Source: Flavobacteriaceae bacterium (lineage in GTDB: Bacteria; Bacteroidota; Bacteroidia; Flavobacteriales; Flavobacteriaceae). Taken from it: a stretch of DNA of 64,000 nucleotides. Made by a program: the position numbers and the translations under genes. Under the pieces are notes generated by a model. The model was not told the DNA's origin and did not search any database. It was given only the letters and a program-made list of their open reading frames with translations. This document shows positions 21,137-44,430 of this stretch, in pieces (position 1 is the first letter of the stretch; each line of letters begins with the position of its first letter). The DNA lies in contig JAENXC010000002.1 of the NCBI GenBank assembly GCA_016649715.1, forward strand, positions 62,001-126,000, written 5' to 3'.

Positions 21137-22456
21137 TTAGTGCGTGCGGTTTTCCTTTAAAAATTCCCGCTTTATTCCCTGCTGTAGAATTTCTGCGGTA
21201 AGCGTTTCACTCTTTTCATCCAGCACTTTTAAGCAGCAAAATTGAATAATATTCAAAATATTAGAGCCGGTAAGTTCATATTTTTTAGCAACTTCTTCCC
21301 AGTTGATTTCTTTGGAAATTTGCATTTTTTTGGGAAGATTTGTTTTCCAAATAACAGCCCTTTCCTTTGGCCCCGGCATCTCAAAAGCAATGATGGATTG
21401 AAACCTTCGCGTGAAAGATTCATCAATATTATCCCTAAAATTGGAAGCCAAAATAATCAGTCCGGGATGCGATTCCACTCGTTGCAATAGATAAGAAACC
21501 TCTTGGTTTGCGTATTTGTCGTGTGCATCACGAACATTGGTGCGTTTCCCGAAGATGGCATCGGCTTCGTCAAAAAATAAAATCCAGTCTTTATGTGCGG
21601 CTTTATTGAAAAGATTTGAAAGATTTTTTTCAGTCTCGCCTATATATTTTGAAACTACTGTGGAAAGGTCAATTCTGTAAACAGGTTTGTTTGTGTACTT
21701 CCCCAAAAGACTTGCGGTAAGTGTCTTTCCGGTTCCTGCTGGCCCGTGAAAAAGTACTCTGTAGCCTTCTTTCAACCGTTTGTCCATTTCCCAATTTTTG
21801 AACAAATAATCGTTGTGTTGCAACCATATTTCAAGTTCCTTGATTTGCTGTATCGTTTTTTGATTCAATATAAGGTCATCCCAACGTAATTGAGTCTCCA
21901 ATTTTTCCGCAGGAAATTGGGTACTCAATTTGGGCGGTGGAACAATACCTGTAGTCAATATATAAACAATTTCGGGGAAAAGGACCAACTTGCCGCTCAT
22001 CATCGGTTCGCCGGAGGGCACATTTTCAAGATAGAGAACGTCCTTCTTGTTGAAGAAATGTTCTTTAGAAAAAAAATCCATGCATTCCATTCGTTTTGTA
22101 AAATTGGTTCCTCCCAAAATAAATTGGACGGTTTCGCCCGTGGGAAGGATACCTCGGTGGTTTTGCCCTTTAACGCCTCCAAACTGGATAAAATCGGTTC
22201 CATTGGGGAATTCCTTTGAAACCACATCCTGCAGTAAAGATGGAAAAAAGGAGGGAACGAGTGCCAAAAGAAGTACTACGCACTCCGCTTGTGAAAAGTT
22301 TTCTTCTTTCAAAAAAGCGCCTAATTTTGATCTTCCAAGTTTTTTTAAATCCAATTTTGGTGCGTCTTTTTCAAAAACAGCCGAAGTGTTTTTAATGCGC
22401 CACGAAATCAAAGCTTCCAAGAAAGTGAATATTTTGCTGAGTTCTGTTTCTTTCAT
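21137..22456 (-). CDS. eCIS AAA+ ATPase (Afp15/Pvc15 type)
   Basis: A 439-residue AAA+ ATPase, last gene of the injection-system cluster. The N-terminal half (about 1-190) is cluster specific; the C-terminal half has Walker A GPAGTGKT at 238-245, Walker B WILFFDEADAIFG near 291-303, LILASNFRDNIDESFTRRFQ with the arginine finger, and a lid domain. In Afp and PVC the equivalent ATPase is needed for particle assembly or cargo loading. It starts 71 bases after the stop of the peptidoglycan-hydrolase-like gene and overlaps nothing. Confidence 0.88.
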   Translation of the reverse strand: MKETELSKIFTFLEALISWRIKNTSAVFEKDAPKLDLKKLGRSKLGAFLKEENFSQAECVVLLLALVPSFFPSLLQDVVSKEFPNGTDFIQFGGVKGQNHRGILPTGETVQFILGGTNFTKRMECMDFFSKEHFFNKKDVLYLENVPSGEPMMSGKLVLFPEIVYILTTGIVPPPKLSTQFPAEKLETQLRWDDLILNQKTIQQIKELEIWLQHNDYLFKNWEMDKRLKEGYRVLFHGPAGTGKTLTASLLGKYTNKPVYRIDLSTVVSKYIGETEKNLSNLFNKAAHKDWILFFDEADAIFGKRTNVRDAHDKYANQEVSYLLQRVESHPGLIILASNFRDNIDESFTRRFQSIIAFEMPGPKERAVIWKTNLPKKMQISKEINWEEVAKKYELTGSNILNIIQFCCLKVLDEKSETLTAEILQQGIKREFLKENRTH

Positions 22457-22527
22457 TGAAAAATTACTTAAAGTTCTAATTTAAAGATAATTATCAGCAA
22501 TTTGAATTTTTTTAACGCAAATGCGAA

Positions 22528-23343
22528 TTATACTAATGGCTCGATGGAAAATACATCCAATAGTGATTTTCTGAAATTTCGGGTTCTCTTTAAAACGGCA
22601 ATACCATTTCGAGAGCCAGCTTGGTTGGTGTTTCCCTCAATAGTTTCAATCACATCGTTGTTTGCTGAAATTATTATACCAGTATGTGTCCAATCGTTAC
22701 TGGATTTTTGCAATAGAAAAAAATCGCCCGGTTTCATAACCGAGGGATTATTGCGAACGGATTGATAACGGGTCAACAATCCTTTGTTAAGACCTGTTGT
22801 GCCCACAGTGTCGCAACTATAGGTAAGGGGCATCAAGCTGCGAAAATCCTTCCCAACGGCACTTGCAGCTTGGTCCAAAATGGTCTGCGCAAAACCCATA
22901 CACCAATACCATGGAGTACCTTCATGGTCATCCATATATGCCCGTACCCATGGCCCACAGTTGGACTGTCCTTGTATTTCAAGCTCGAAAGGTGCATTTT
23001 TCAAATGGTTTTCGGCTGCTTCTACAATAGCGTTTCTAAGCGAAGTTGACTTTAAAGGTTTTTCAAAAGCTTCTTTCATTCCTTCACAAAGTTTTTCAAA
23101 CAGTTGAGTTGTGACTATGCCAGTTGGACTTTCGCCTATTGCATTTTGAAAATTTTTAACGGCTTTTTCCATTGCAGGCCCAAAGTCGCCATCAATACCG
23201 GTAACAGTACCGCTTTCGGGATGCTGAATGGCATATAGCGAAAGCCATGATTGGATTTTCATCACATCTTTTTTGTTATTATCGCCATTTCTTTTTTGAG
23301 TGTCGGCGATTGTTAGTTCTTTTAAATACTTGTCTTTTTTCAT
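22528..23343 (-). CDS. Peptidoglycan-binding and CHAP-like cysteine amidase protein in eCIS cluster
   Basis: A 271-residue protein without signal peptide. Residues about 25-90 resemble a PGBD1 peptidoglycan-binding domain (IQSWLSLYAI...GDFGPAMEKAVKNFQ...GIVTTQLFEKL). The rest looks like a CHAP/NlpC-type papain fold: Cys 148 in TPWYWCMGFAQ (compare the usual WCAxFV), His 220 in DWTHTGIII, and Glu 236/Asn 238 in IEGNTN. It may cut bacterial cell wall, either to release particles from the producer or as cargo. Its lack of an export signal and its place between the propeller gene and the ATPase favour an eCIS role. Confidence 0.7.
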   Translation of the reverse strand: MKKDKYLKELTIADTQKRNGDNNKKDVMKIQSWLSLYAIQHPESGTVTGIDGDFGPAMEKAVKNFQNAIGESPTGIVTTQLFEKLCEGMKEAFEKPLKSTSLRNAIVEAAENHLKNAPFELEIQGQSNCGPWVRAYMDDHEGTPWYWCMGFAQTILDQAASAVGKDFRSLMPLTYSCDTVGTTGLNKGLLTRYQSVRNNPSVMKPGDFFLLQKSSNDWTHTGIIISANNDVIETIEGNTNQAGSRNGIAVLKRTRNFRKSLLDVFSIEPLV

Positions 23344-23351
23344 AATTTTAT

Positions 23352-24272
23352 CTATTTAGGTGGTTGCTTTTTCAATAAAATCAATTTGGAGTTTTGGATT
23401 ACTGCAAGGCTGTCTTTCCAAGCGATTACGGAAAAGACGAAACCATCAATTTCGAATACATCTGTGTTTTCTTGAATAACTACCGATTGCCATTTGTTAT
23501 CCTCATCTATTGTCGATTCTTGTTTTTGGAGCCAGAAAGTGGCCTCCTTCCCTGAAATAGCTTTGAGCTTTCCAAGGGAAGCTTTATTAATAGGAAAATC
23601 TACCAATTTATCATTTTTCAGAAATTTGAGAAAAACGGTATTAGGTTCAAGCCATCCATAAAAAATTGCATCAGTTGTTTCACCAATTGTTATTTGCTGT
23701 GAAATATCCAAATTTGCTATTTTGTTGCTAATTAAATTAATTAGGGTTGTCTTATTCTTTTCTGAAATGGCGGCAAAAATTGTTTCCTTTAAAGGAAAGA
23801 GTATGGCGGGTGGACTACTGACTGAAATTGGTGATAGTCTTTCAATTTTATGGGCCACCAAATTCAAGTTTCCACGTTCTATTTGGTTTGTGTTTTCTTG
23901 CCAAGCGATGAACAATTTATTGGAGCAGGTTGTTAATGGCCAAATGGTCGGGGTGAATTCCAAAGTGTTTTGCCATTGAATTTCTCCAGAATTATTTATG
24001 GCGATTATCATGGGTTTTCCCTCAAAATCTGCACCTGTAACGATGAGTTGTTTTTTGCAGATTGTAGCCGAAGTTGATAAAAGTGGCAGCTGAGCCATTT
24101 TTTCAAAATCTAATGAAGCGTTCAGTTTAAATAATATAGTTTCTTTATTGGCCAATACATTTATCAATATATAGACTACTTCGTCCCAGCAGACCAAAAC
24201 CGCATGGGTTTCAATAACAATTGGTAACGAAATAGTTTTTGCAATTTTCAGTATGGCTTTATTTTCTTTCAT
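23352..24272 (-). CDS. Propeller-like protein of eCIS cluster, unknown function
   Basis: A 306-residue protein from the ATG at 24272 (MKENKAILKIAKTISLPIVI), 10 bases after the stop of the DUF4157 gene; a longer reading to 24428 would overlap that gene and is less likely. It is made of repeated beta-rich blocks of about 40-50 residues (for example TICKKQLIVTGADFEGKPMI, AINNSGEIQWQNTLEFTP), which looks like a beta-propeller. No signal peptide and no catalytic motif are seen. It may be a cargo, chaperone or target-binding subunit. It ends 8 bases before the peptidoglycan-hydrolase-like gene. Confidence 0.6.
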   Translation of the reverse strand: MKENKAILKIAKTISLPIVIETHAVLVCWDEVVYILINVLANKETILFKLNASLDFEKMAQLPLLSTSATICKKQLIVTGADFEGKPMIIAINNSGEIQWQNTLEFTPTIWPLTTCSNKLFIAWQENTNQIERGNLNLVAHKIERLSPISVSSPPAILFPLKETIFAAISEKNKTTLINLISNKIANLDISQQITIGETTDAIFYGWLEPNTVFLKFLKNDKLVDFPINKASLGKLKAISGKEATFWLQKQESTIDEDNKWQSVVIQENTDVFEIDGFVFSVIAWKDSLAVIQNSKLILLKKQPPK

Positions 24273-24282
24273 TCTAAAATTT

Positions 24283-27039
24283 TTATGCGTTGTCATGAAT
24301 CCATTCGGCAAACGAAACATAGGCCGGGATAAACGCGGTTTCCACATCTGGGGTTGCACCTGCCAATGCCTGAAGCAACAGTGATATTTGTTGGCGTGCT
24401 TCAGCTCGGAAAAAGTCGGGACCAACAAATACTGTATCGCTCGCTAATGTGGCACCTGAAGGCCAAGACACCACTCCGGTAGCAAGCCCAATTATAGTTA
24501 GATCCCGTTTTACGGCGAATTTCATCATTTTGTAACGTTCCAATATAGCAGCTAATTTTACCATATCATCGAGAGTGGGTTTATTGAGCGGAACGGAAGG
24601 ATCATTTACAGGAAAGCGTAGGGCAGCTTGTTCCATATATTCTTTGGCCCAGGTTAAATCCCAAGTTATCTCATCACTCCTCACTTTTTGGGCCTCTCCA
24701 AATAATTGTCCGGTGTGGTCAGTTGCCCAATCGATTCTTTTTTCAAACTGTGCCAAAGCCATTTTCAAAGGAGCCTCATCTTCTTGATCAATTCCTATTA
24801 AAGTATCATTGGCGGGAGTAAGTATTCCTGCCGGAACCGCATTTGCATTTCCGGTAGTCTTTACTTCTTTGGCATATAATGCGAATAGCGCATAGCTGTC
24901 AGAATTTCGCAAACGGTCCGCAGGAGAAAGTAGGAACATCAGTCTCTCGTGTCTGTAAGCAACGTCTTTTGTGCCTTCGGTAGGCTTGCTGGCACCCCCC
25001 AATGGCGATGTTCCGTGCGCGCTTTCGTGGATTAAATTACGGGCCTGGTCGTTGGTATTCATTCCTTTAAACATTGGGACACATAAGGTCATCCTTGAGG
25101 CAGCATCCACCGAATGGTTATAGGCAATCACACCCGTATTCTCACAACCTCCTTTATCACATTGGCCGCCACAACGGGTAATGGCTGGCAACCCTGAAAC
25201 ATGCATTTGTAATATAGAAAGATTATTTGCTAAAGTAGTTAAAGTGGCGGTGTCCTTATTTCCAAAAAATTGTTCTACCAAAGTTGGATTAAAATCGGCG
25301 TGCGCCGGATTTGCGGCATTTATTGCCGCTGTCATAGCAGCATTGGCAATAGGCAAAGCTGTATTGAAGGCAGAGAGCGTATCCGCATCCATAGTGGCGC
25401 AGGGTTGTGTGGGTGGATTTACCTTTTCCGGAGGATTGGTTCCAGGAATCTCTGCAGCGCAATCAAGGGTGGTGGGGGTGGAAGTTCCAGTAAGAATTTC
25501 TACACTACGAGCATTGGCAAAGTCGCTTCGTGTTGCTGTGGCTCCAGCATTGCCTATTGCAGAAACTACCATTACTGCGTTGGGATTAAGTCTTAATTTT
25601 GCACTTACTAAATTTGCTCTGTTTTGGGCTAATACTGGATCTTCCTCCATACTGGTAAAACCAATTAATCGAATATTTGTTGGCGCGGTTAATTTGAGAG
25701 CATCAATTTGCGAAATCGCATTTGGAGTTAATTGATCACTACCTCCGGCGAAAAACACTTTGTCTTGTGATGATTTTGGAATTCGGTTAATTTTAAAATC
25801 AGTCGCTCCAGCGGTTGGCATTACGGTTGGCATTGACGTTGCCGTAGGCTGAAGCGTAACCAAACTTTTTCGATTTTGGGTAGTATCCACACTTGAGAAT
25901 TCCTCAGTTTCCCCGTGCGCAAATTTATGGAATGTTGCTGTTGAAGGAATTCCGGGGCTTCCGTCGCTGGGGTTTTTCAGTTCATTTTCAACTGCGTTTG
26001 CACGATCACAGGAAAGTTTCCAATTGGTTGATGCTTCTCCATCACAACTTGCGAAACCATCAATTCTTACAGTGTCATTTCTTGCGTCTGCATGCCATTT
26101 TGCAGCGATAGCTGAAATAGCAGCAATCCCCGAAGCATCTATTGCCCATTTGCCCACTACATAATTTATTTCGGTATTTTGATGCGTAGGCCGGGAAGTT
26201 TCTGTGGAACAGCCATTCATCCCTGTGGAGGGGACTGTGGCAGGTCTATTGTCGCAAAATCGCTGAATATTGTTGCGAATGCCTTTATTTTGCTGAATAA
26301 CATGAGTTAGTTCGTGTGCTAATAAATGGTTTCCGGATTTTGACGAAGGATTAAATTTCCCGCTGTTGAAATAAATATCGTTGCCATTAGTAAATGCTTG
26401 TGCACCCAATAGACGATTCATTTGAACCGAAGTACTATTATTATGTATCCTAACATTGCTGAAATCTGCTCCAAAACCTCGCTCCATTTGCATTTTGGAA
26501 TTGTGTGGTAAAACCGAACCACTACCTTTTGTGCTTTTTAGAGTTTTTTCTACTGTATTAAATGAAGAGCCTTCATTTCCTGTTGATTTTTTCTGAATTT
26601 TTTCTTCCTCCTGCTCACATGCTTCACATTTTTGCTGGAGATTAATTGATCCGCTCTCTTCTGAAACCTTTGCTTGAACTGATTCCTTTTCACATTCCTC
26701 GCACTTTCCCTGAACTTTTTCTTCTTCATTGGTTTGTAATTGCACCAATGGCTTTATAGAGTCAGAAAGTGGTTTTTTTTGAATTTCGTCTGCGTTTTCC
26801 TCTTCACTTTTTTTCTGGATAGGCGAAGTCGGAAAAAAAGTTTCAGCGGCTTTAGAAGAATTATTTTCCGCTCGCTGCACTACTTTATCTGCCACAGCAT
26901 CGGCTTCTTTTTCAAATGAATCACCAGCTTTTCCAACAGATAATTTGGCTTGAGCAGCAAAAAAAGGCGAATTACCGCTAAATTGCGACCCTGAATTAGG
27001 TTTTCCGTTTTGGACGTTATGTGATGAAAATGCTCTCAT
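24283..27039 (-). CDS. DUF4157 (eCIS core) protein with two OmpA-like domains and an aspzincin-like protease domain
   Basis: A 918-residue protein, probable cargo. The N-terminal 150 residues are low complexity with two Cys pairs (KCEECEKE and KCEACEQEEE). The DUF4157 domain spans about 185-260 and contains HELTH at 242-246 (HLLAHELTHVIQQNKG). Two OmpA-like segments follow: about 290-400 (VRIDGFASCDGEASTNWKLS, then CDRANAVENEL) and about 415-525 (IRLIGFTSMEEDPVLAQNRA). Near residue 671 is a second zinc motif, HESAH (671-675), then GTKDVAY (Asp 692), then RNSDSYALF; HExxH plus GTxDxxY is the aspzincin (M35) signature. The C-terminal 200 residues are helical and unassigned. DUF4157 is the best-known marker of proteins linked to eCIS. 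Confidence 0.85.
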   Translation of the reverse strand: MRAFSSHNVQNGKPNSGSQFSGNSPFFAAQAKLSVGKAGDSFEKEADAVADKVVQRAENNSSKAAETFFPTSPIQKKSEEENADEIQKKPLSDSIKPLVQLQTNEEEKVQGKCEECEKESVQAKVSEESGSINLQQKCEACEQEEEKIQKKSTGNEGSSFNTVEKTLKSTKGSGSVLPHNSKMQMERGFGADFSNVRIHNNSTSVQMNRLLGAQAFTNGNDIYFNSGKFNPSSKSGNHLLAHELTHVIQQNKGIRNNIQRFCDNRPATVPSTGMNGCSTETSRPTHQNTEINYVVGKWAIDASGIAAISAIAAKWHADARNDTVRIDGFASCDGEASTNWKLSCDRANAVENELKNPSDGSPGIPSTATFHKFAHGETEEFSSVDTTQNRKSLVTLQPTATSMPTVMPTAGATDFKINRIPKSSQDKVFFAGGSDQLTPNAISQIDALKLTAPTNIRLIGFTSMEEDPVLAQNRANLVSAKLRLNPNAVMVVSAIGNAGATATRSDFANARSVEILTGTSTPTTLDCAAEIPGTNPPEKVNPPTQPCATMDADTLSAFNTALPIANAAMTAAINAANPAHADFNPTLVEQFFGNKDTATLTTLANNLSILQMHVSGLPAITRCGGQCDKGGCENTGVIAYNHSVDAASRMTLCVPMFKGMNTNDQARNLIHESAHGTSPLGGASKPTEGTKDVAYRHERLMFLLSPADRLRNSDSYALFALYAKEVKTTGNANAVPAGILTPANDTLIGIDQEDEAPLKMALAQFEKRIDWATDHTGQLFGEAQKVRSDEITWDLTWAKEYMEQAALRFPVNDPSVPLNKPTLDDMVKLAAILERYKMMKFAVKRDLTIIGLATGVVSWPSGATLASDTVFVGPDFFRAEARQQISLLLQALAGATPDVETAFIPAYVSFAEWIHDNA

Positions 27040-27042
27040 GTT

Positions 27043-28389
27043 TTACCATTCCACAAAAAGTATTTTTTCTTTCCAGGGAATTTTTATCAAATGAATACTC
27101 CATGGAAGTTTCTCCAATAAAATATCTTGGGTTTTTCGCTGTACTATTAATGTTTGCTTTTCTTCAGTAATGATCAATTTTCCTTCTCGCTGTAAAAATT
27201 CGTTTTGAATGATTTTCGTTGATTTGCTTTTCAGTGCACTCCAATGTTCCAACACCGCCTGCAACAATACTTCGCACGATATTTTTTGTTCTTTGGATAA
27301 TGAAACATGACGATTTATGGGCTGGTGAAGGGAAACATTGCACAGAAATTTTTCAAAAACCAATTCGTGTTCATAAGTCTGTTCCTTTCCCGTTGACAAA
27401 TAATGTAGCAAATGAATCGCTTCATCCACTTTTTCAGTCTTAATATGTTTTCCCGAAAGAAAATCCAGTTTTTCAAAAAACATTTTTAGAAACGGGTGCA
27501 ACAGAATTAGCCCGGCATTTCTCAGTAAAATTCCGTCTTTTTCAATGCTGGATAAGCTTTCTGAAACCTCAATATTATTTGTTTTTTCAGAATTTGCTTT
27601 TTTCAATAATTCTTTATTCGTTGCCTTAATTTTCGCGAACTCTTCTATGTCAATTTGAATATTTATGCCAAATATTTCATTAGCTATTTTCAATATTTTT
27701 TCAACATCCTTTAAAGAAGTATTTTTAAGTATTTCGATTAGTGCTTTTTCATTATTTATAGAATGACTTAAAACTGCTTCCCAAAATTGATTTCTAATAT
27801 TTTTAAGGATTTTAAAACTGTTGTTTCCCTTTTTTATTAACATCAGAACAGACGAAACAATTTGAAAGAGCTGCTTATTGTCAAACTGAAAAATCAATCT
27901 TTTGCGGATTTCCTCTTTTTCAAGAAGTGCTTTTAGTTTTTTTGAAAATTCTTTTTCCGGAGGTAGGTTATTTAGAAATTCTTCCCAAATGTTTGTCTTT
28001 TCCTCAAACCACCAAGGTAATGTCCCGTGATTTAGAAAATGAAAAAATGCAGCGGTCTCATTTTCCGCTGAATTGACGATTTTAAAATTCTGGAAACTAT
28101 TGATTGAAATGTTTTCAGCATTAATTTTATTTTTTAATTCACTGATAATCAGAAATTTTAAATCGATCATTGAGCTGTTTTCTTTTAAAGAAATTTCTAT
28201 TGCAATAGAATCGATTCTAATGGTATTAGATTTATTTTTTTGAAAAGAATTAAAATAGTTATCCATTTCTGGAAAGATTTGTTCTTTAAAAAATGTATCC
28301 AAACCATCCTTTAGCTGCAAACCATTTTCAAGCGAAGGAGTATTTACCCCAATTTCTACTTTTTTTATGATATTTTTTTGCGCAACCAT
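27043..28389 (-). CDS. eCIS tape-measure protein (Afp14/Pvc14 type)
   Basis: A 448-residue protein fitting the contractile injection system tape-measure family: N-terminal IIKKVEIGVNTPSLENGLQL...FFKEQIFPEMDNYF, and C-terminal LHQPINRHVSLSKEQKISCE and LPWSIHLIKIPWKEKILFVE. The middle is helical and Lys/Glu rich. It should sit in the tube lumen and set the tail length. The stop lies 3 bases before the DUF4157 gene. It is preceded by a 247-base non-coding stretch, the largest gap in the cluster. Confidence 0.82.
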   Translation of the reverse strand: MVAQKNIIKKVEIGVNTPSLENGLQLKDGLDTFFKEQIFPEMDNYFNSFQKNKSNTIRIDSIAIEISLKENSSMIDLKFLIISELKNKINAENISINSFQNFKIVNSAENETAAFFHFLNHGTLPWWFEEKTNIWEEFLNNLPPEKEFSKKLKALLEKEEIRKRLIFQFDNKQLFQIVSSVLMLIKKGNNSFKILKNIRNQFWEAVLSHSINNEKALIEILKNTSLKDVEKILKIANEIFGINIQIDIEEFAKIKATNKELLKKANSEKTNNIEVSESLSSIEKDGILLRNAGLILLHPFLKMFFEKLDFLSGKHIKTEKVDEAIHLLHYLSTGKEQTYEHELVFEKFLCNVSLHQPINRHVSLSKEQKISCEVLLQAVLEHWSALKSKSTKIIQNEFLQREGKLIITEEKQTLIVQRKTQDILLEKLPWSIHLIKIPWKEKILFVEW

Positions 28390-28636
28390 TTGTTCTTTAG
28401 TTTTTTAGACTTATATTTACAACTCGATTCAGAGATGAATTACTGGGTTGTGTGCAGTTTAGTGTTAGTTCTTTTATAGTTTGTGCTTTAGGTTTCTCGA
28501 TTGATTTACATTCGTGTTCTTTTGTTCTTACTTGTTAGTCTAGTTCTTTAGTGTTTTAACCCATAGGGGTATCATTTGGATTGTACAATTTACCGACTGA
28601 TACCCTTCTTTTTTGCAATAGTTTTAGCAAGACCCT
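28390..28636 (-). other. Non-coding gap inside the eCIS cluster
   Basis: 247 bases between the 873-aa gene and the tape measure. On the minus strand it holds an inverted repeat GGGTATCA...TGATACCC (28599-28606 and 28568-28575), and a repeated AAAGAAC motif (ctaaagaacaa, ctaaagaactag, aaaagaactaac, aaaagaacac). It contains no good reading frame. It could be an attenuator, a processing site or a separate promoter for the tape-measure/cargo/ATPase half; I see no clear TAnnTTTG element. Confidence 0.4.
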
Positions 28637-37060: not shown

Positions 37061-37471
37061 TTATACTTCGGTGCCTTCTGTTTTATAGAATGGGAATACC
37101 ATATTTGCCCGTGAATTTGTGATTCGAACCACGTATTCAATATTTATTAAAATCTCGCCACTCAGTTCGTTTGTGGTATCCAGTGACACCGTTTGTGTAT
37201 CAATTCGCGGTTCGTAATACAGAATTGCGGTTTTTATAAGTTCAATTATATAAGTCTTTAAGGTTACATCCAGCGGCTGAAACAAAAGTTCTTCCAGATT
37301 GCAACCGTAATTGGGAAGCATAATCCGTTCTCCCAAACGGGTTGATAAAAGAATTTCCAGACTTTTGTTGATATCAACTATTCCGGCCGTAGTTACCAAT
37401 TCACCAGTTTTTTTATCAAAATGTGGTGGAAAACTCCATCCTTCCCCTAAAAATATTTCTGATGTATTCAT
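37061..37471 (-). CDS. GPW/gp25 family baseplate wedge protein (Afp9/Pvc9 type)
   Basis: A 136-residue gp25-type protein: LGEGWSFPPHFDKKTGELVT, then INKSLEILLSTRLGERIMLP, NYGCNLEELLFQPLD and LIKTAILYYEPRIDTQTVSL. The GERxMxPxyGxxLxxxLFxP pattern is diagnostic for the family, which joins sheath and baseplate and shows lysozyme-like likeness only in phage T4. It lies between PAAR and J genes, as in other contractile systems. Confidence 0.9.
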   Translation of the reverse strand: MNTSEIFLGEGWSFPPHFDKKTGELVTTAGIVDINKSLEILLSTRLGERIMLPNYGCNLEELLFQPLDVTLKTYIIELIKTAILYYEPRIDTQTVSLDTTNELSGEILINIEYVVRITNSRANMVFPFYKTEGTEV

Positions 37472-37503: not shown

Positions 37504-37797
37504 TCATCCACCAATTTGGACTGTAAATTCTCCCAAAACTATCGTCCCGCCGTGTGCAGTACTGTCTCCCATACGCGCTGCCGGCATTCCCCCAATTAGC
37601 ACAGATGAAGAACCCAAGATTATTGAATCCGGTGGCCCCGCGCAGGGTGCCATATCACCAACTCTCGCCGCGGGCATTCCGCCAATAAGCACGGTTGGTT
37701 CCCCTGCTGGAAGTATTGGTCCGCCAACATGCGGACTTCCGTTTGGATTTACCATTGGGCAAATGTGCATATCGTTTATTCTGGCTGCTGGAGGCAT
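37504..37797 (-). CDS. PAAR-domain spike tip protein
   Basis: A 97-residue PAAR protein: PPAARINDMHICPMVNPNGS, HVGGPILPAGEPTVLIGGMP, AARVGDMAPCAGPPDSIILG, then a second IGGMPAARMGDSTAHGG. The repeated GGxPAARxGD motif and the His/Cys ligands fit the metal-bound cone that sharpens the VgrG spike. No effector extension is attached. It sits between the VgrG-like gene and gp25. Confidence 0.93.
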   Translation of the reverse strand: MPPAARINDMHICPMVNPNGSPHVGGPILPAGEPTVLIGGMPAARVGDMAPCAGPPDSIILGSSSVLIGGMPAARMGDSTAHGGTIVLGEFTVQIGG

Positions 37798-37840
37798 TTT
37801 ATTGTTAATGGTTAATTGTTAGAAGTTATTTGTTCCAAAA

Positions 37841-37867
37841 TTTCCTCTTTGGGGGTTAGAGGGCTTA
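37841..37867 (-). repeat. Dispersed C-rich repeat overlapping the stop codon of the VgrG-like gene
   Basis: On the minus strand it reads TAAGCCCTCTAACCCCC then AAAGAGGAAA. Its first three bases are the stop codon of the VgrG-like gene. Similar copies lie at 48731-48755 (also starting at a stop codon, that of sdaA) and 60663-60689. Confidence 0.7.
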
Positions 37868-39610
37868 ATTAATTTGAACCAATGATCCTTTTAAAACTGC
37901 TACGGCATTGGTTGAAACTTCGGCTCCGGCGCTCCCTTCAGCTTTAAATTGGGCATTTGCTTTTACATTTATATTCGTTGCTTCAATATTGCAATCACCG
38001 GTAGCTTTTATGCTGAAATCTTTTTCGCTTTCCATAGCGATCCCGCCGCTGTCCATTGTAATTTTGTTTGAATTTTCATCTTCAATTTTTATAACCCCGG
38101 AATCTTCATCGATGGTCACTTTTTTTCCAGCGGGAGTCTCTATTGTGATGGATTTTTTATCATCGTTGAAAATCAATTTCATTTCGCTACGGGTCACAAA
38201 TCCTTTTTCGTGATTGTCGTCAGATGCTGTCAAAGGAGCAGGTTTTGCACTACTGTGGAGCATTCCGAGAATTACGGCGTGGTTTGGATCGTCATTTATA
38301 AAACCCACAATTACTTCGTCTCCAATTTCAGGAAGAAAGAAGGAGCCTCTGTTGTTGCCAGCATCCAGTGTTGCCACGCGAGTCCAAATGCCTTGTTCGT
38401 CATTGTTGATGATTGGTATTTTCACTAAAATTCTATCCTCACCGTCGGGATCTGATTCTAATTGGGAAACTACCCCAATTTGTAATCCGCTCACTGCTGG
38501 TATAATTCCTGCAGCTGGTAATTCTGAAACGTCATAGGTTTCGCTGAACCATTTTGGGTTCATTCCGAATTCCGCATCAACGGTCCAATTTCCTTCTGCA
38601 ATTTCGTGACGTACAGCACTGATGAAAATTTTTCCGTTGAAACGATCGCCTACGCCTTCTAATTTTAAAATCGTCCCTGGTTTTACTGTTGGAATTCCTT
38701 GAAACTTTACGCGTCCACGGGTTTTTGAAAGTTGCTGAAAAAGATTTTTAGCGTCGCTCCAATTTTGTAATTGAGTTGAATTGTAATTTCCACCATGTTT
38801 CAACTCTAAATTTTCGAGATCGATTACTGTTGCCAAATCTGAAACGGAAATATTTCCATTCAAAGATATTCCCGGGTCATTGGCTTCAGCTTCCACAATT
38901 TCCTGCTCGGAAGGATTCCAACCGTAAGCTGTAATTGAGTTGAACTGGTTTCGGGCATCCATTTCGGCGTCGAAATCAAGTATAGTGGAACCAAAAGCTA
39001 CAGTCTCAATTTCAGTTTGCGAAAAGTCTGGTTTTGAAATGGTAATTTTTCCGTCATCAACAGTGCAAATCTTTCCATTTAATTGGGCGCGCGTCATAAT
39101 AAAATCCCAATCCGAAGCTCGATATTGAACCATTTCTTTGTTCGTGAAAGTGGTGGCTTCAACATCATTTTCCAAAGAATACTTTCCGATTATTTCTTCA
39201 ATAATATCGCTATCCTTGCTTTCGTAATAAAAATTGCTTTTTCTGCCAATGGTCATTTTCACGGCTTCATTCCTGCATTCCACAATCAAAATAGAATTGC
39301 TCTCACGAATTTTAATGCTGTGTTTTATAATAATTCCTTTGAAAATAGTTGCCTCATCGCTGTGATAACCCGCTTTAATTTCTATATTTTTTCCCGGCAC
39401 CAAAAAGTCTTCACTGCTCAAACTGAAATTTTGTGAAGCGGCTTCGCCATCAAAAAAAACAATTTGCGCAAAGGGAATGCGGTTGATTTCCTTTTCCACA
39501 GAAATATTCTTTACTTGATATGCAGACGAAATTTCAGTGCCCTCAATCAATATTTTGAAGGTCACCAAATCTGCGCTTCTAGAGGTTTCTATGGTTCTAC
39601 TGTTCGGCAT
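37865..39610 (-). CDS. eCIS VgrG-like spike protein (Afp8/Pvc8 type)
   Basis: A 581-residue spike hub. The N-terminal half has gp27-like barrels (VTFKILIEGTEISSAYQVKN, DFLVPGKNIEIKAGYHSDE, YRASDWDFIMTRAQLNGKIC). The gp5-type OB domain runs from about 374 to 455 (IGVVSQLESDPDGEDRILVK, FFLPEIGDEVIVGFINDDPN). The C-terminal part is a repeated beta prism (ETPAGKKVTIDEDSGVIKIE, DENSNKITMDSGGIAMES, VKANAQFKAEGSAGAEVSTN) on which PAAR sits. It starts one base after the LysM gene's stop. Its stop codon is formed by a dispersed repeat. Confidence 0.92.
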   Translation of the reverse strand: MPNSRTIETSRSADLVTFKILIEGTEISSAYQVKNISVEKEINRIPFAQIVFFDGEAASQNFSLSSEDFLVPGKNIEIKAGYHSDEATIFKGIIIKHSIKIRESNSILIVECRNEAVKMTIGRKSNFYYESKDSDIIEEIIGKYSLENDVEATTFTNKEMVQYRASDWDFIMTRAQLNGKICTVDDGKITISKPDFSQTEIETVAFGSTILDFDAEMDARNQFNSITAYGWNPSEQEIVEAEANDPGISLNGNISVSDLATVIDLENLELKHGGNYNSTQLQNWSDAKNLFQQLSKTRGRVKFQGIPTVKPGTILKLEGVGDRFNGKIFISAVRHEIAEGNWTVDAEFGMNPKWFSETYDVSELPAAGIIPAVSGLQIGVVSQLESDPDGEDRILVKIPIINNDEQGIWTRVATLDAGNNRGSFFLPEIGDEVIVGFINDDPNHAVILGMLHSSAKPAPLTASDDNHEKGFVTRSEMKLIFNDDKKSITIETPAGKKVTIDEDSGVIKIEDENSNKITMDSGGIAMESEKDFSIKATGDCNIEATNINVKANAQFKAEGSAGAEVSTNAVAVLKGSLVQIN

Positions 39611-39611
39611 C

Positions 39612-40298
39612 TTAGGAAACTTTTTCTATTGGGGGGAATTTAATTTGTTGCCCCGGTTTCAATCTTCTGAAATTTGACAGATTATTGGCGGCCGCAACCT
39701 GTAAATAATATTTTGAATCGCCATAAATACTGAAAGCCATTAAAGGCAGTGTATCTCCTTCCTTCACAATTCGGATGTGTGTAAGATCGGGGGAATTGTT
39801 GTTTTCCTTCGCCAATCTTAAAAGTTCGTCCACAACTCCTTTGAAACTTGCCGTAACCGTGGCGCGAAGTGGAACTCCTTCGGGCGAGAACAATTTGTAT
39901 TCAACGGACATCTCTGCCAAAATTCCTTTGAAAAGTAGCGTGCCCCAACCAATGATTAAATAATTTGGTTTATGCTCGTCGCCATTGTAATCGAAAACTA
40001 TTCTTTTGAAACGTTCTATATCAACAACAATTCCTACTCCGAGAGAATTGTCGTGGCCCTTGATTACTCCAGTTCTGTCAAATAGGAATTGAAGATTTAA
40101 ATCTTCCGGGAGGGATCGAACGTATTTTGGCTGAGTGGCACTCGTACCTTGGCCCTGAGCTTCGGTGTATTCCACCTTGTATTTAAAAGCGTACTTTTCG
40201 GGATTCAGCAAAGACGAAAAAACCCCATCACCCACCAATTGGATGAATTTATTATCGCGAAACGCTATAATTTTCAGCTTAGTGAGCTCGCCTTTCAT
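39612..40298 (-). CDS. eCIS tube-baseplate adaptor with LysM domain (Afp7/Pvc7 type)
   Basis: A 228-residue protein. The N-terminal part (KGELTKLKIIAFRDNKFIQL...YAFKYKVEYTEAQGQGTSAT) fits the CIS tube-protein N-terminal domain, with PKYVRSLPEDLNLQFLFDRTG. The C-terminal LysM-like domain is at about 172-226 (IRIVKEGDTLPLMAFSIYGD, NNLSNFRRLKPGQQIKFPPI). In Afp/PVC this protein joins the inner tube to the VgrG spike. Its ATG overlaps the stop codon of the DUF5908 gene by one base. Confidence 0.88.
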   Translation of the reverse strand: MKGELTKLKIIAFRDNKFIQLVGDGVFSSLLNPEKYAFKYKVEYTEAQGQGTSATQPKYVRSLPEDLNLQFLFDRTGVIKGHDNSLGVGIVVDIERFKRIVFDYNGDEHKPNYLIIGWGTLLFKGILAEMSVEYKLFSPEGVPLRATVTASFKGVVDELLRLAKENNNSPDLTHIRIVKEGDTLPLMAFSIYGDSKYYLQVAAANNLSNFRRLKPGQQIKFPPIEKVS

Positions 40299-40459
40299 TA
40301 CCGTTCTTTTTTTCTGGATTCAATATTGAAAACTTCTTCTACGCAGGCTTTTATTAAATCGTCCATTTTGCCGTCCGGTTTTTTGTTTTGGGAGACATTG
40401 GATTGATCGCTGCCGTTCACATTTATTTTTATGTGAAGTTCTTTGATTTCTATAGGCAT
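40298..40459 (-). CDS. DUF5908-type small eCIS protein
   Basis: A 53-residue reading frame on the minus strand: MPIEIKELHIKINVNGSDQS, NVSQNKKPDGKMDDLIKACV, EEVFNIESRKKER. The start PIEIKELHIK and the end with EEVxxIxxxKxER are as in the small DUF5908 proteins found in Bacteroidota contractile-system clusters. It begins one base after the stop of the second tube gene, and its TAA overlaps the ATG of the LysM gene by one base, so coupling is tight. Its role is unknown; a chaperone for tube or hub assembly is possible. Confidence 0.85.
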   Translation of the reverse strand: MPIEIKELHIKINVNGSDQSNVSQNKKPDGKMDDLIKACVEEVFNIESRKKER

Positions 40460-40460
40460 T

Positions 40461-40901
40461 TTATACGAGTGTAAAATAGTTATAGGCCAATTCTATGGTT
40501 TCGATGGTGATTTTGCTTTCTTCAGCATTGAAATCGTCAACGCTCCATTTTACTGGATATACGTGTACAACATTCCACGTTACAAGCGGTTCGTGTTTTT
40601 CGTTCAGCAATTTTACCGTGAGATCCAGTGGTTCAAATTGAAAACTTTCAATAGCATTCCTGCACCATTTTATAAGTTCGGAATCGGTGACCATGCCACG
40701 TTTCAAAACGAGATTTGGAAATTTGGACCGTACCGGAAACTTATGTCTGAACCTATTTTCGCCTCCTTCGGCAAACTCCTCGGTTTCAATATCTACGGAA
40801 AGACCGGAAACCGATTGGAATTGAACGTCCTTTTCCTGGGAGGAAAGTCCGTTGAATTCCACCTTAAAGTGAAAGCTTACCGGAGGATACGCAGTCGCCA
40901 T
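40461..40901 (-). CDS. eCIS inner tube protein 2 (Afp5 type)
   Basis: A 146-residue phage tail tube protein of the gpT/Afp tube family: YPPVSFHFKVEFNGLSSQEK, FQSVSGLSVDIETEEFAEGG, then LVLKRGMVTDSELIKWCRN and a C-terminal EESKITIETIELAYNYFTLV. In Afp and PVC a second tube paralogue forms the first layer on the hub. It is a paralogue of the gene next to it; the start codon here overlaps the stop of that gene by one base. Confidence 0.88.
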   Translation of the reverse strand: MATAYPPVSFHFKVEFNGLSSQEKDVQFQSVSGLSVDIETEEFAEGGENRFRHKFPVRSKFPNLVLKRGMVTDSELIKWCRNAIESFQFEPLDLTVKLLNEKHEPLVTWNVVHVYPVKWSVDDFNAEESKITIETIELAYNYFTLV

Positions 40902-41338
40902 TAATCGCCGTTTTGAATTGTTAAACCTTCGTGCGCAATTTCCAGGGTTTCAATCGCCGTTTCATTGCCATCGCCTTTTAAATCGGTGGACTGCACTTTT
41001 AGTGGGAAAGCATTTTTTACTTTCCAAACTATTACTGGCGCATGCTCTTCGTTTAGCAATGAAATAGTAATGTCCCGACGTTCAATGGTGTTTAGGCTTA
41101 CGGTGTTCCACCATTTGTAAAACTCGTTGTCGTTTGCAAACGAACCGCGTTTTAAAGTAATGTTGCTGTATTTCTGCATCCCCGGCATTTTTATTTTGCT
41201 GTATTCCGGGCTGGCACCGTGACGGTACTCGATCATTTCAGTTTCTACATCCAGTCCGCTGACTTCGGTAAAACCTATGTTTGTTCCTCCCCAGTCCACT
41301 GAGAAATGAAACTTTACTAAAGGATATGTGTTGGCCAT
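40901..41338 (-). CDS. eCIS main inner tube protein (Afp1 type)
   Basis: A 145-residue tail tube protein: YPLVKFHFSVDWGGTNIGFT, EVSGLDVETEMIEYRHGASP, NITLKRGSFANDNEFYKWWN and ETAIETLEIAHEGLTIQNGD. The shared F-x-V-x-W, EVSGL and LKRG blocks place it in the gpT/Hcp-like tube family. By position after the sheath it should be the main tube subunit. A 120-base gap with tandem short repeats separates it from the sheath gene. Confidence 0.9.
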   Translation of the reverse strand: MANTYPLVKFHFSVDWGGTNIGFTEVSGLDVETEMIEYRHGASPEYSKIKMPGMQKYSNITLKRGSFANDNEFYKWWNTVSLNTIERRDITISLLNEEHAPVIVWKVKNAFPLKVQSTDLKGDGNETAIETLEIAHEGLTIQNGD

Positions 41339-41348
41339 TTTTGAAAAA

Positions 41349-41460: not shown

Positions 41461-41461
41461 A

Positions 41462-42895
41462 TCACGCCTCTTGCATTTTGTGTGAGAATTTCAATATGAT
41501 GAATTCCGCTGGACGGACTGCTGCCATACCAATTTCAATATTCATAATTCCGTTAAGTATATCGTCTGCGGTCATTGTTTCACCCAAGCCTACGCGTACA
41601 TAAAATGCTTGTTCGGGTTTGGCTCCGGCAAGTGCTCCGGCGCGCCATTGAAGGATCAAGAAATTCTCAATCATTGCGCGAACTTTTACCCATGTATTTG
41701 CATCGTTGGGCTCAAAGACGAACTGGGCGGTAGCTTTGTCAACAGATTCCTCAACCATATTGAAAAAGCGGCGCACGGGAACGTATTTCCATTCGTTGTC
41801 ATTTCCAGCCAGTGTCCGTGCACCCCAAACCAAAATACCCTTTCCTGTAAAGGAACGAATGGAATTGATGGATTTCCCCGTGGTGTGTACATTCAAATCC
41901 TGTTGTGCTTCATGGGTTATTTTTATGGTGGGTTCAACACACGCACTTACAGATTCATTTGCGGGAGCTTTCCAAACACCTCGGTTGCTGTCCACTCGAG
42001 CGTAAATTCCTGCAACAGCACTACTGGGCGGAAGGGTTACGTATTGCTGTTCAAGTTCTGCCTTAATTTTATTGTACAAAACAAGATTGAAATCTGTGTC
42101 GCTGCTATCGGCAAGTTCGCTTAAGGCTTTTCCGTCATAGGCACCCGTGGTGGTAGTATTTGTTTCATCCGTTTCGTTATGGGCGAGGGTAATATCTGCA
42201 TCATCATACGCATAGCTATAAACCGTTTTTAGGAAAGGATGATATGCCGCGCCGTATTTGAGCAAATCCACGCCGTTGCCTAAAGACGCGGTGTTGCGGA
42301 TGTTATCGCTATTATTACCGTATGCGTCTATAATTATAAAGCGATCTTTCAACTTTTGCGCTTGCATCAAAGCACGATTGATCAAAGAATAATAGCTTGC
42401 GGTAGTTGAAACTGCCATAGCATCCGGAAAAAGATAGAGCGTTGGTTCGTCATATTTTTCGAGTTCGTCAACTGCTGCAGCAAGAAGCGGCTGGTTCACA
42501 ACCCCGCTGGTATAGTCTCCAACAGAAGCAATATAGCAGGGCCCACCGCCATTGTCAAAATACATTCGCATTGCATAATACATTACATAAGGGCTAGGTG
42601 TAACCACAGCAGTGCTGAATTTTTGGTCCAAAAGCTGGATGGGTGGACCACTATTTATAGTATCTTTAATGGTTACGGTAATGTTTTGCTCATTTCTCGC
42701 TTTCCCGAAATACGTTTCGTATTCCAGCAAAGAAACAATGCGAGTTGGTTTGTTCAACAGGCTGTTGCCGTTTTTCTCGGCTTTTTCGGTGTAGCCAATA
42801 AAGGCTGGGATTGCTGTTTCCACTTGAGCCACCGATGGTGGAAATTTTGATATTTCCTCCACATAGACCCCAGGTGTTTTGTAAGTAGTTGCCAT
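41462..42895 (-). CDS. eCIS contractile sheath protein (Afp2/Pvc2 type)
   Basis: A 477-residue phage tail sheath protein. It begins ATTYKTPGVYVEEISKFPPS, VAQVETAIPAFIGYTEKAEK, a standard sheath N-terminus, and ends with the conserved sheath C-terminal domain (GKGILVWGARTLAGNDNEWK, YVPVRRFFNMVEESVDKATA, IEIGMAAVRPAEFIILKFSH). It is the only sheath gene in the cluster, whereas Afp and PVC have three. It should wrap the tube and contract to drive it into a target. Confidence 0.95.
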   Translation of the reverse strand: MATTYKTPGVYVEEISKFPPSVAQVETAIPAFIGYTEKAEKNGNSLLNKPTRIVSLLEYETYFGKARNEQNITVTIKDTINSGPPIQLLDQKFSTAVVTPSPYVMYYAMRMYFDNGGGPCYIASVGDYTSGVVNQPLLAAAVDELEKYDEPTLYLFPDAMAVSTTASYYSLINRALMQAQKLKDRFIIIDAYGNNSDNIRNTASLGNGVDLLKYGAAYHPFLKTVYSYAYDDADITLAHNETDETNTTTTGAYDGKALSELADSSDTDFNLVLYNKIKAELEQQYVTLPPSSAVAGIYARVDSNRGVWKAPANESVSACVEPTIKITHEAQQDLNVHTTGKSINSIRSFTGKGILVWGARTLAGNDNEWKYVPVRRFFNMVEESVDKATAQFVFEPNDANTWVKVRAMIENFLILQWRAGALAGAKPEQAFYVRVGLGETMTADDILNGIMNIEIGMAAVRPAEFIILKFSHKMQEA

Positions 42896-42903
42896 AGTTT
42901 TTG

Positions 42904-43779
42904 TTATTGGTTAATAAATATTTCTGAAAAGGTTTTAATGATATTTCCGCCGCCGTCCTTTTCAAATATGAGCCGTGATGGAATGGCGGAAGGTCGTTCT
43001 TGGCCATCAAAACTGTAACCTATAATACCGTTTTTGGCCAGTGGAAGTTCGTTGGGATCTGTGGAGTGGAGGAGTGTGCTGTCTGAAGCATTGCGATAGT
43101 TCCAAATGGTGCTTCGGTTTTTCAGTTGAAGTTTGAAGGTTTCCGGAGTAACAGGGATTGTTCCGTTTACGTTCAAAATATTTCGGGTATTACCGTCGAA
43201 TGAAACGGTATTGTCGCCTGCCATTTCCAAGGAAATGATTCCGAAGAGACCAATTTTTTCTTTTTCGGAAAGGATTTTCCCTATTTCAGTATAACTGTTT
43301 TGGTTGATGGTGAAACCTTCAATGGGCAGGGTAGTGGTTTCTAGATCGATATATTTGAAGGAAACACCTTCCGAAACTGGTTTTTTGTTTGATAAATAAT
43401 AAGGTATAGTCGGTTTGGAATTAACGGTTGAATAGTTTTCAAAGAGTGAATCTTTCACATAAATCAAAAAGTTGAAGACGGTGGTTTGTGGAAGGCTCAC
43501 GAATGGTTTATAAGTTCCAGAGTTGGGTGCGGTTTCTTCCGCTTTCGCATAAATGGTAAATCCGAGGGGTATTGGCTTGAAAACGAGTTTGTTTCCTTTA
43601 AATAATTCCTGCGTTTCTTCCGAAGGAATTATTTCGCAGAAATCCTCAGAGTTATATTTCCCCAGTTGCTCTTCTTTTAAAGTTGGATTATTGTCAAAAG
43701 CTACACTGCCGTCATCCAAAAAATAATGATGGTAAACGTTCACGCTGAACAGTACGCGATATGTGGTGGTGAAGTTCAT
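42904..43779 (-). CDS. Unknown 291-residue eCIS protein between cap and sheath genes
   Basis: I do not recognise this family. The protein is soluble and beta-rich: TTYRVLFSVNVYHHYFLDDG at the N-terminus, FKPIPLGFTIYAKAEETAPN, TTVFNFLIYVKDSLFENYST, and at the C-terminus RLIFEKDGGGNIIKTFSEIF. No signal peptide or catalytic motif. Its ATG overlaps the stop codon of the DUF4255 gene (both include position 43779), and it lies 8 bases before the sheath gene, so it is firmly in the operon. It may be a structural accessory of the cap or an assembly factor. Confidence 0.6.
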   Translation of the reverse strand: MNFTTTYRVLFSVNVYHHYFLDDGSVAFDNNPTLKEEQLGKYNSEDFCEIIPSEETQELFKGNKLVFKPIPLGFTIYAKAEETAPNSGTYKPFVSLPQTTVFNFLIYVKDSLFENYSTVNSKPTIPYYLSNKKPVSEGVSFKYIDLETTTLPIEGFTINQNSYTEIGKILSEKEKIGLFGIISLEMAGDNTVSFDGNTRNILNVNGTIPVTPETFKLQLKNRSTIWNYRNASDSTLLHSTDPNELPLAKNGIIGYSFDGQERPSAIPSRLIFEKDGGGNIIKTFSEIFINQ

Positions 43780-44369
43780 TAGGTAATGTTGTTTAAGATT
43801 CCGGAAATCTCTGTAATTGGCGTGCCTTTATCGGTAAGGGTGTCGCTTTCAATTTTTACAATGCTTATTTTATAGAGTACGCTTGGGAGTGATTTTCCGC
43901 CCAAAGTGCCCCAGATATAATTCAATTGCTCAAAAGTTGGGGTAAATAGTTCGGCAATAAAGCGGAATTCTTTTATATTTTCCAACGCTGGAATGGACGG
44001 ATTTAAAGGAGTATTTGTTTGCGTAAATATTTTTTTTGACTGGAAGAATTCTATAATATAAGAGAGTGCTGTGAGCGAACGTGAATAAGTGCTTCTATTG
44101 GCAGAAAACAAAGCAAAAACATTTAGGTTTACGGGTGTGTTTTTATAAATGGTTTCCCCGTTTTTGAATTTTACGTTTGGGTTATTTTTTAAAGCAGTTT
44201 CTTCCTCGATGTTTAAAAGGGAAAGAACCACTTTGTCATTCATCGTAGTATTGTCCGGGTCGTCGTGTTTGGATACGTTTTCCAAAACCACCAGATTGCT
44301 GTCTGCGGTTTTTAGTTCCAAATATTTTGAAACTTGATCTTTTACTATTTCGAGTGTTTCGTAAATCAT
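43779..44369 (-). CDS. DUF4255 tail-terminator/cap protein (Afp16/Pvc16 type)
   Basis: A 196-residue DUF4255 protein, the first gene of the injection-system operon. I place the start at ATG 44369 (MIYETLEIVKDQVSKYLELK) because the family starts with M-I-x-x-x-L-x-x-x-x-x-x-L; the upstream in-frame extension to 44411 runs through the promoter. It has VVLSLLNIEEETALKNNPNV, then YKNTPVNLNVFALFSANRST and YSRSLTALSYIIEFFQSKKI. In Afp/PVC the equivalent caps the distal end of tube and sheath. Confidence 0.88.
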   Translation of the reverse strand: MIYETLEIVKDQVSKYLELKTADSNLVVLENVSKHDDPDNTTMNDKVVLSLLNIEEETALKNNPNVKFKNGETIYKNTPVNLNVFALFSANRSTYSRSLTALSYIIEFFQSKKIFTQTNTPLNPSIPALENIKEFRFIAELFTPTFEQLNYIWGTLGGKSLPSVLYKISIVKIESDTLTDKGTPITEISGILNNIT

Positions 44370-44399
44370 TTGTGAGGAACCAATAAGATGTCTGAAACT

Positions 44400-44430
44400 C
44401 AAATTTACCAAAAAACAACGAACTGGGCAA
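44400..44430 (-). promoter_or_regulatory. Promoter of the eCIS operon (Bacteroidetes type)
   Basis: On the minus strand, TTG (44430-44428), a 20-base spacer, then TAAATTTG (44407-44400), an exact match to TAnnTTTG. It lies 31 bases upstream of the DUF4255 start codon at 44369, leaving a leader of about 25 bases. Confidence 0.7.

Follow-up and report, generated by a model that had tools for sequence, protein, structure and literature searches.

What kind of contractile injection system (CIS) is encoded by a compact gene island in a Flavobacteriaceae bacterium, and how might its particle be assembled, loaded, and fired? The coding part of the island occupies positions 21137-44369, on the minus strand, of a 64,000-nucleotide stretch (hereafter the window) of contig JAENXC010000002.1 (positions 62,001 to 126,000; assembly GCA_016649715.1). 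An earlier note on this DNA had read it as a complete extracellular CIS (eCIS) of the Afp/PVC type (antifeeding prophage and Photorhabdus virulence cassette). Profile and solved-structure matches of the parts support the completeness and point to a different kinship: with a rough probability of 0.85, the island encodes a complete, intact system of the AlgoCIS type (clade Ib), present as a chromosomal island in some members of the genus Aequorivita, for which assembly, loading, release, and injection can be proposed. As such, it would be a further member of a kind already known from Algoriphagus. Its gene content, order, intactness, and kinship are read directly, and the particles are known here from their genes alone.

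An intact island of 18 genes

The island consists of 18 genes that run in one direction, as the earlier note had it.

43779..44369, minus: cap with Pvc16_N domain, Alg16A-like, 196 residues; PF14065, E 2.5e-35 (scanned from an upstream TTG); ATG start set by comparison with relatives
42904..43779, minus: cap adaptor, Alg16B-like, 291 residues; PDB 7adz_1A "cap adaptor protein", 8e-23; All3326, 9e-6
41462..42895, minus: sheath, 477 residues; PF17482 and PF04984; PDB 7adz (Alg2 chain, 692 residues), 2.6e-164; 7b5h, 2.2e-157
40901..41338, minus: tube protein 1, gp19-like; PF06841, 2.7e-49
40461..40901, minus: tube protein 2, gp19-like; PF06841, 1.9e-46; candidate tube initiator by analogy with Alg5
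40298..40459, minus: spike plug, DUF5908, 53 residues; PF19265, 4.4e-15; between tube protein 2 and the LysM protein, and equated with Alg6 by this position
39612..40298, minus: Alg7/Pvc7-like tube initiator with C-terminal LysM; PF19266, 1.4e-49; LysM, 0.0017, under cut-off
37865..39610, minus: spike, gp27/gp5-like (Alg8); PF04717, 1.5e-20; PF05954, 0.0005, under cut-off
37504..37797, minus: PAAR spike tip, Alg10-like; PF05488, 8.9e-26
37061..37471, minus: gp25-like sheath initiator, Alg9-like; PF04965, 3e-24
33918..37055, minus: baseplate J protein, Alg11-like, 1045 residues; PDB 7aeb_G, 8.9e-242; aligned through the cage region
31270..33930, minus: baseplate wedge, Alg12-like, 886 residues; PDB 7aeb_A, 1.2e-234
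28637..31258, minus: tail fibre, 873 residues; PDB 9wt0_a, 9e-101, best stretch residues 1-491 (Alg19-like), with a C-terminal part of its own
27043..28389, minus: tape measure, 448 residues; PF19268, 9.9e-100
24283..27039, minus: cargo with eCIS_core (DUF4157), OmpA-like, and M35 aspzincin protease domains; PF13699, 6e-29; PF00691, 6.7e-12; PF14521, 8.7e-14
23352..24272, minus: 306-residue protein of no known family; proposed cargo partner
22528..23343, minus: PG_binding_1 and CHAP protein, a probable peptidoglycan hydrolase; PF01471, 3.4e-9; CHAP, 5e-5, under cut-off; no hydrophobic segment by hydropathy
21137..22456, minus: AAA+ ATPase, Pvc15-like by role, proposed cargo loader; PF00004, 7.3e-26; Walker A and B present

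Every gene begins with ATG and ends at a single terminal stop without an internal one, so that a check for broken frames finds those of the sheath, the tubes, and the other genes intact in the sequence. Among the 17 gene junctions, four overlap (by 1, 1, 1, and 13 bases), eight leave gaps of 1-11 bases, and the remaining five are longer (32, 67, 71, 123, and 247 bases). The sheath substitution rates of two pairs (dN, nonsynonymous, 0.06 and 0.11; dS, synonymous, saturated at >2.5) are likewise counted in favor of an intact system. The lower end of the extent given earlier, 21137 to 44430, stands; the upper end moves inward, the most likely start of the cap being the ATG at 44369, which yields 196 residues, close to the 197 of Alg16A. 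A 64-residue open reading frame at 44236-44430, which shares bases with the cap in a different frame, was not taken as a gene.

Fourteen of the 18 proteins have a fitting Pfam family at its cut-off, which identifies the cap, the sheath, the two tubes, CIS_tube, the OB domain of the spike, PAAR, gp25, J, CIS_TMP, eCIS_core, PG_binding, AAA, and DUF5908. The 886-residue wedge passes the cut-off only with a DUF1508 segment and takes its identity from the solved Alg12, while the cap adaptor and the fibre have no Pfam match at E 0.01 and are recognised through solved AlgoCIS proteins. The 306-residue protein has no match in Pfam (read at 358 residues), PHROGs, NCBIfam, PADLOC, or PDB at the limits used.

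Kinship with AlgoCIS

The AlgoCIS particle is described as having one sheath protein, a cap adaptor, a plug, and a cage, and as grouping in clade Ib with metamorphosis-associated contractile structures (MACs) and subtype iv of the type VI secretion system (T6SS-iv; PMC8894135). The resemblance of the Aequorivita island to the AlgoCIS of Algoriphagus machipongonensis extends to the number of genes, 18, and to nearly every part: cap, cap adaptor, one sheath, tubes, plug, LysM tube initiator, spike, PAAR, gp25, Alg11 through the cage region, Alg12, an Alg19-type fibre, and a DUF4157 metalloprotease cargo. That a single sheath protein is at work is indicated by the sheath profile PF17482, which has one match in the whole genome. 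The alignment spans cage domain IV (Alg11 residues 278-643), where query residues 477-505 form a join that did not align. The best solved match is an AlgoCIS protein for the sheath, cap adaptor, Alg11, and Alg12, and an AlgoCIS-associated chain of 1443 residues for the fibre; it is through this length that we equate the chain, 9wt0_a, with Alg19. The differences lie in the size of the sheath (477 residues against 692), in the fibre (873 residues against 1443, with a different C-terminal part), and in the cargo, of which there is one DUF4157 protein here and two in AlgoCIS; furthermore, the 306-residue and CHAP genes are extra here, the accessory genes of AlgoCIS not having been compared singly.

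The Afp/PVC assignment of the earlier note is not borne out. Afp and PVC (clade Ia) share the general plan of cap domain, plug, LysM protein, spike, PAAR, gp25, J, Pvc12, and AAA+ loader; however, they have several sheath proteins and neither cap adaptor nor cage (the term used in PMC13314943 is "cage-less PVCs"), and their similarity to the system here is far lower. The sheath falls from 2.6e-164 with AlgoCIS to 5.2e-74 with Afp3, the J protein from 8.9e-242 with Alg11 to 7.4e-42 with Pvc11, and the wedge from 1.2e-234 with Alg12 to 7.1e-24 with Pvc12. Sheath number, cap adaptor, cage region, Alg19-type fibre, and similarity are the grounds on which it is rejected. The thylakoid-associated CIS of Anabaena (all3313-all3327) is a nearer relative, with a sheath of 484 residues (2.2e-157), a Cis11 with cage, a Cis12, and a Cis19 (All3314) that matches the fibre here at 8.5e-31. 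Nonetheless, Alg11, Alg12, and the fibre are less similar to it than to AlgoCIS, and the present host belongs to the Bacteroidota and has no thylakoids. Anchoring of the Anabaena system is ascribed to Cis13, with its transmembrane helix, and to an extension of Cis12 (PMC8894136); a hydropathy scan found no C-terminal transmembrane helix in the fibre here, Cis13 itself not having been searched for. Thus the system appears to be of the AlgoCIS type, an assignment made from shared features and the ranking of best solved matches rather than from a tree that includes MACs or T6SS-iv.

The same clade Ib parts could in principle form a membrane-anchored, contact-dependent machine at the inner membrane, similar to the T6SS-iv of Amoebophilus. 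Within clade Ib, the published analysis places T6SS-iv and MACs, which act in anchored or arrayed modes and were not sequence-compared here, nearest to AlgoCIS, with which they have plug and cage in common (PMC8894135). Gene content alone is compatible with anchoring, and hydropathy exceeds 1.6 in three stretches, namely, residues 57-75 of the AAA+ ATPase (2.04), the 306-residue protein (1.66), and the fibre (1.65), all from a hydropathy scan only. These stretches, however, look like parts of globular domains, no protein carries a string of them, and the fibre is kin to the one with which AlgoCIS attaches to its target cells (PMC13314943). We regard an anchored machine as unlikely.

Profiles of TssM (PF06761) and VipB/TssC (PF05943) have no match in the whole 3.4-Mb genome, which speaks against a T6SS of subtypes i-iii; an Escherichia coli control was positive for both. 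The absence of TssJLM genes reported earlier therefore holds genome-wide for TssM, TssJ and TssL not having been searched at that scale. As a sign of an extracellular mode, the use to which the earlier note put it, this absence proves nothing, because clade Ib also includes the T6SS-iv of Amoebophilus, described as T6SS-like in action. To our knowledge, that system has no TssJLM proteins either. An extracellular mode is likely by kinship with AlgoCIS.

A far more remote reading is that of a remnant or active phage tail module. The parts are homologous to those of contractile phage tails, and the sheath matches 281 phage records; yet all 281 best matches are under 60% identity, none covers 80% of the sheath, and coverage is at most 42% among the matches listed. 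The plug and the AAA+ ATPase are described as absent from phages (PMC12210884). Neither the 18 genes nor the 22 flanking proteins, which are metabolic, regulatory, secreted, or family-less, contain a head, portal, or terminase family named by Pfam; within this range the earlier statement that such genes are absent stands (no genome-wide search for them was made). A phage tail module of this kind is highly improbable.

Distribution in Aequorivita

The host is an Aequorivita. A search with the Alg12-like protein returned nine named loci, eight from Aequorivita and one from Flavobacteriaceae, at 82-92% identity. The genome of the window (3.40 Mb, 99.86% complete) was compared with its genus, in which the gene for a DUF2891 protein, found in 27 of 28 genomes, marks the site. 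The island adjoins it in 11 genomes, with the AAA+ gene as neighbor in nine and the tape measure in two; in ten others, one of them on broken contigs, a locus of ~4 kb around DUF2891 has neither the island nor the kinase operon described below. The island is therefore a chromosomal presence/absence unit that some members of the genus possess.

Identity to the window in the seven nearer clusters (one cut by a contig end) is 78-99% for structural proteins, 64-87% for the plug, and 56-61% for the tape measure; in the three distant ones it is 73-94%, 64-72%, and 49-53%. Between species the tape measure (27043-28389) thus has 49-61% identity, and the neighboring fibre and Alg12-like protein 75-93%. 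In one further genome (G026), a lone stop-free sheath gene, 73% identical, adjoins DUF2891 (G026:C22:84956-86383, L050) in the absence of any tube or tape-measure match in the genome, and looks like the sole survivor of an island. Literature searches pairing "orphan sheath" with "extracellular contractile injection", or "Aequorivita" with "contractile injection", found nothing; supplements and eCIS databases, outside these searches, may list such loci.

A variable cargo slot and its AAA+ ATPase

Between the tape measure and the AAA+ gene lies a cargo slot whose content varies among the genus clusters. The window shares its M35-type cargo and the 306-residue protein with G024, G017, G022, and G005, the M35 assignment resting on Pfam in the window and G024 and on 76% full-length identity in the other three. 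The cargo of G027, 1471 residues long, is a probable nuclease by its weak match (26.9 bits, cut-off 27) to non-specific endonuclease, and G021 has a 645-residue peptidoglycan-binding cargo (Pfam), with a relative of the same size in G015. The window cargo, with HExxH motifs at residues 242 and 671, resembles Cgo1 of AlgoCIS, a DUF4157 protein and predicted metalloprotease located in the tube lumen (PMC8894135).

The 306-residue protein accompanies all five M35-type cargoes and is found in none of the other five clusters (G027, G021, G015, G020, and G008); a role as partner of the cargo, helper or guard, is proposed. The CHAP gene occurs in four of ten clusters and also directly before the AAA+ gene in another genus of the family (L160). 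A protein of 857 residues with many hydrophobic segments, absent from the window, precedes the AAA+ gene in G017 (L036:3350-5920), G022, and G005; its patatin match, tested in G017, is under cut-off (1.4e-4).

Two clusters, G020 and G008, keep their structural genes through the tape measure and have neither a recognised cargo nor an AAA+ ATPase. Whole-genome searches found no eCIS_core in either and no close AAA+ orthologue, the best being 34% identical over residues 219-379 in G008 and 30% in G020. The two fall apart in a noisy single-gene tree of DUF2891, which suggests, without proving, independent losses. Such clusters would suit a cargo-free particle that, like an R-type tailocin, harms by puncture, with cargo as an optional add-on. 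In the window, however, the cargo is intact with both HExxH motifs and the ATPase retains its Walker motifs, and nine of the 11 genus clusters have both genes; a cargo-free particle is accordingly very unlikely here.

Could the AAA+ ATPase be the loader? In PVC, particles assemble without Pvc15 and lack their payload, Pvc15 being needed for loading (PMC11495950). A CIS_TMP search of 395 genomes of the class matched 52, from 37 of which 38 stretches were taken; 11 further clusters with a tape measure were added, and two stretches whose contigs end just past it (L144 and L147) were left out, which gives 47 loci. Cargo and AAA+ occur together in 32 of these, AAA+ alone in nine, neither in six, and cargo without AAA+ in none (Fisher p 0.0005, with no correction for kinship). 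From the 59 rows scored, ten without a tape-measure match in their stretch are uncounted (G018, G001, G003, G026, G039, G025, G012, G016, G005B, and G010), among them G003, whose cluster is split between contigs and has eCIS_core and AAA+; also uncounted is G007, with a weak eCIS_core match (1.6e-6), a tape-measure fragment, and a genome 69% complete. Three short loci (L150, L162, and L163) are counted, the AAA+ gene of L162 lying upstream of its tape measure. Outside the count, G002 has two eCIS_core matches and a more distant sheath, with an AAA+ match (3e-48) beside them, and L180, a further locus of the genus with cargo, also has an AAA+ match. By analogy with Pvc15, a loader role in clade Ib agrees with this pattern of co-occurrence; the nine AAA-only loci may hold other cargo. 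PADLOC labels the ATPase of the window (21137-22456) "IetA" at 2.4e-33, which we judge to be a generic AAA+ match.

The firing disulfide

Firing of AlgoCIS on cells is reported to require a disulfide that joins C268 and C1000 of Alg11 (PMC13314943); the bond belongs to AlgoCIS and is not known to be a mark of the clade. The window protein has a phenylalanine at the C268 position, counted by hand along the alignment, and that stretch is free of cysteine in all 11 genus orthologues, the one in the window among them. After residue 855 the window protein has cysteines at 1032 and 1043 only, with none in 856-1031; the other ten orthologues have the same two, and G003 one extra, at window position 869. 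Because both lie too close to the C-terminus, neither matches C1000. The disulfide thus appears to be absent from all 11 orthologues, the alignment having been examined up to Alg11 residue 887 and the C1000 half taken from coordinates. C290 and C326 are both cysteine in ten of the 11 and both serine in one, which hints at a cysteine pair of their own.

Proposed mechanism and target

Modelled on AlgoCIS, the order of assembly would begin in the cytoplasm, where plug, spike, and PAAR would nucleate the baseplate and gp25 with the Alg11/Alg12 wedges would start the sheath. The two tube proteins and the tape measure would set the tube, and the cap and cap adaptor would close it off. The AAA+ ATPase would load the DUF4157-OmpA-M35 protease cargo, with the 306-residue partner helping or guarding. 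As for release and target, we infer that particles would exit through cell lysis and that the Alg19-like fibre would bind a target cell, upon which the cage would open, the sheath contract, and the cargo be released.

Bacteria are the likelier target, given the OmpA-like domain, the HExxH protease (residue 671), the CHAP protein, which has a peptidoglycan-binding domain and no hydrophobic segment, and the peptidoglycan-binding cargo in a relative. AlgoCIS is reported to bind Echinicola pacifica, its tube passing the outer membrane (PMC13314943), and no strain or cell tested is reported to have been sensitive (PMC8894135).

Several points weigh against parts of this scheme. The 47 loci are not phylogenetically independent, and without the ten Aequorivita clusters the counts become 24, 9, 4, and 0 (Fisher p 0.011, likewise uncorrected for kinship). 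Three of the four loci outside Aequorivita that have neither gene (L153, L167, and L169) also have no fibre match and may therefore be systems of another kind. In nine loci an AAA+ ATPase stands without a recognised DUF4157 cargo, so the ATPase may do more than load such proteins. With regard to the protease, growth inhibition by Cgo1 of AlgoCIS is described as independent of the metalloprotease motifs, with no sensitive target found (PMC8894135). Given the apparent absence of the disulfide, triggering must differ in detail from that of AlgoCIS. Finally, a released particle and a membrane-held one are indistinguishable at the level of sequence.

Leader, promoter, and neighboring genes

The longest gene junction precedes the tape measure, and a candidate promoter lies upstream of the cap.

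28390..28636, minus: leader between fibre and tape measure, with inverted repeat and invariant 28-bp block in a 10-species alignment
44400..44432, minus: candidate promoter, TAAATTTG at 44400-44407 and TGTTG at 44428-44432

Both of the longest invariant runs of the 17,886-column, 10-species alignment fall within the 247-bp leader (28 bp at 28424-28451 and 21 bp at 28592-28612). The fraction of invariant columns in the leader is 0.575, compared with 0.51-0.67 in 12 other genes measured and 0.30 in the tape-measure gene. An 81-codon frame is open in three of ten species and interrupted or start-less in seven, the window among them; a protein alone does not therefore explain the invariant blocks, and the leader was rejected as a small gene. 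In relatives, the leader carries an inverted repeat, GGGTATCA/TCGG ... CCGA/TGATACCC, whose exact pattern occurs once per genome in nine of the 28 genus genomes, at the leader position in the clusters examined, with a variant in G008; in the window the loop is shortened and a single position of the 12-bp stem is unpaired. The fold has no covariation, because the blocks hardly vary. At its gathering threshold, Rfam matches nothing in the window, and two matches in the leader are at chance level; tblastn of the leader peptide gave no match below E 0.5 beyond this type of cluster among the loci compared, and no exact match turned up in viral contigs.

The candidate promoter resembles the Bacteroidota promoter form; TAnnTTTG and TGTTG are each present in ten of 11 upstream sequences, window included. 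Between the island and a kinase operon lies a 34-bp palindrome, AGGGAAAAACCCTTTTTAAAAAGGGTTTTTCCCT (44501-44534), with related sequence also at island-less sites. The operon (44561-47079) comprises genes for proteins of 134 and 234 residues without Pfam family, a 265-residue kinase, and then a LuxR-type response regulator. The idea that the three-piece kinase is a broken gene is not supported, relatives in the genus having the same layout. In five genomes without the island at that site (G012, G013, G004, G001, and G025), the operon stands ~75-230 bp from DUF2891; it thus belongs to the site, not to the island, which corrects a regulatory guess and weakens the operon as a dedicated island regulator. 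No tRNA was found in the 64-kb window.

Several Aequorivita genomes also hold parts of a second, scattered CIS (L058, L060, L062, L066, L068; L103-L106, L108-L110). Its sheath gene adjoins apparent adk and obg genes (named by eye), while tubes, and sometimes a spike, a short tape-measure C-terminus, a cap, or an AAA+ gene, lie elsewhere, some frames being interrupted. G012 and G025 each have a sheath, and tubes were not found in either.

What a second well-sampled genus may tell

In the literature considered, AlgoCIS is the member of clade Ib for which an atomic model and a mechanism of firing are available. Aequorivita adds a second well-sampled genus, in which three cargo types, forms free of cargo and loader, and the apparent absence of the disulfide provide natural variants for testing the parts. 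The main interest lies in the sister species, where the same syringe recurs with other loads, or with both load and loading motor missing. On the practical side, automated defence annotation may miscall AAA+ ATPases of this kind. Tentatively, and with considerable doubt, one particle may exist in two natural states, loaded (cargo and AAA+, nine of 11 clusters) and unloaded (neither, two of 11), the latter perhaps acting by tailocin-like puncture. If this is true, clade Ib syringes would have a separable loading module, and the disulfide of the cage iris, which the 11 orthologues appear to lack, would not belong to the general mechanism of firing.

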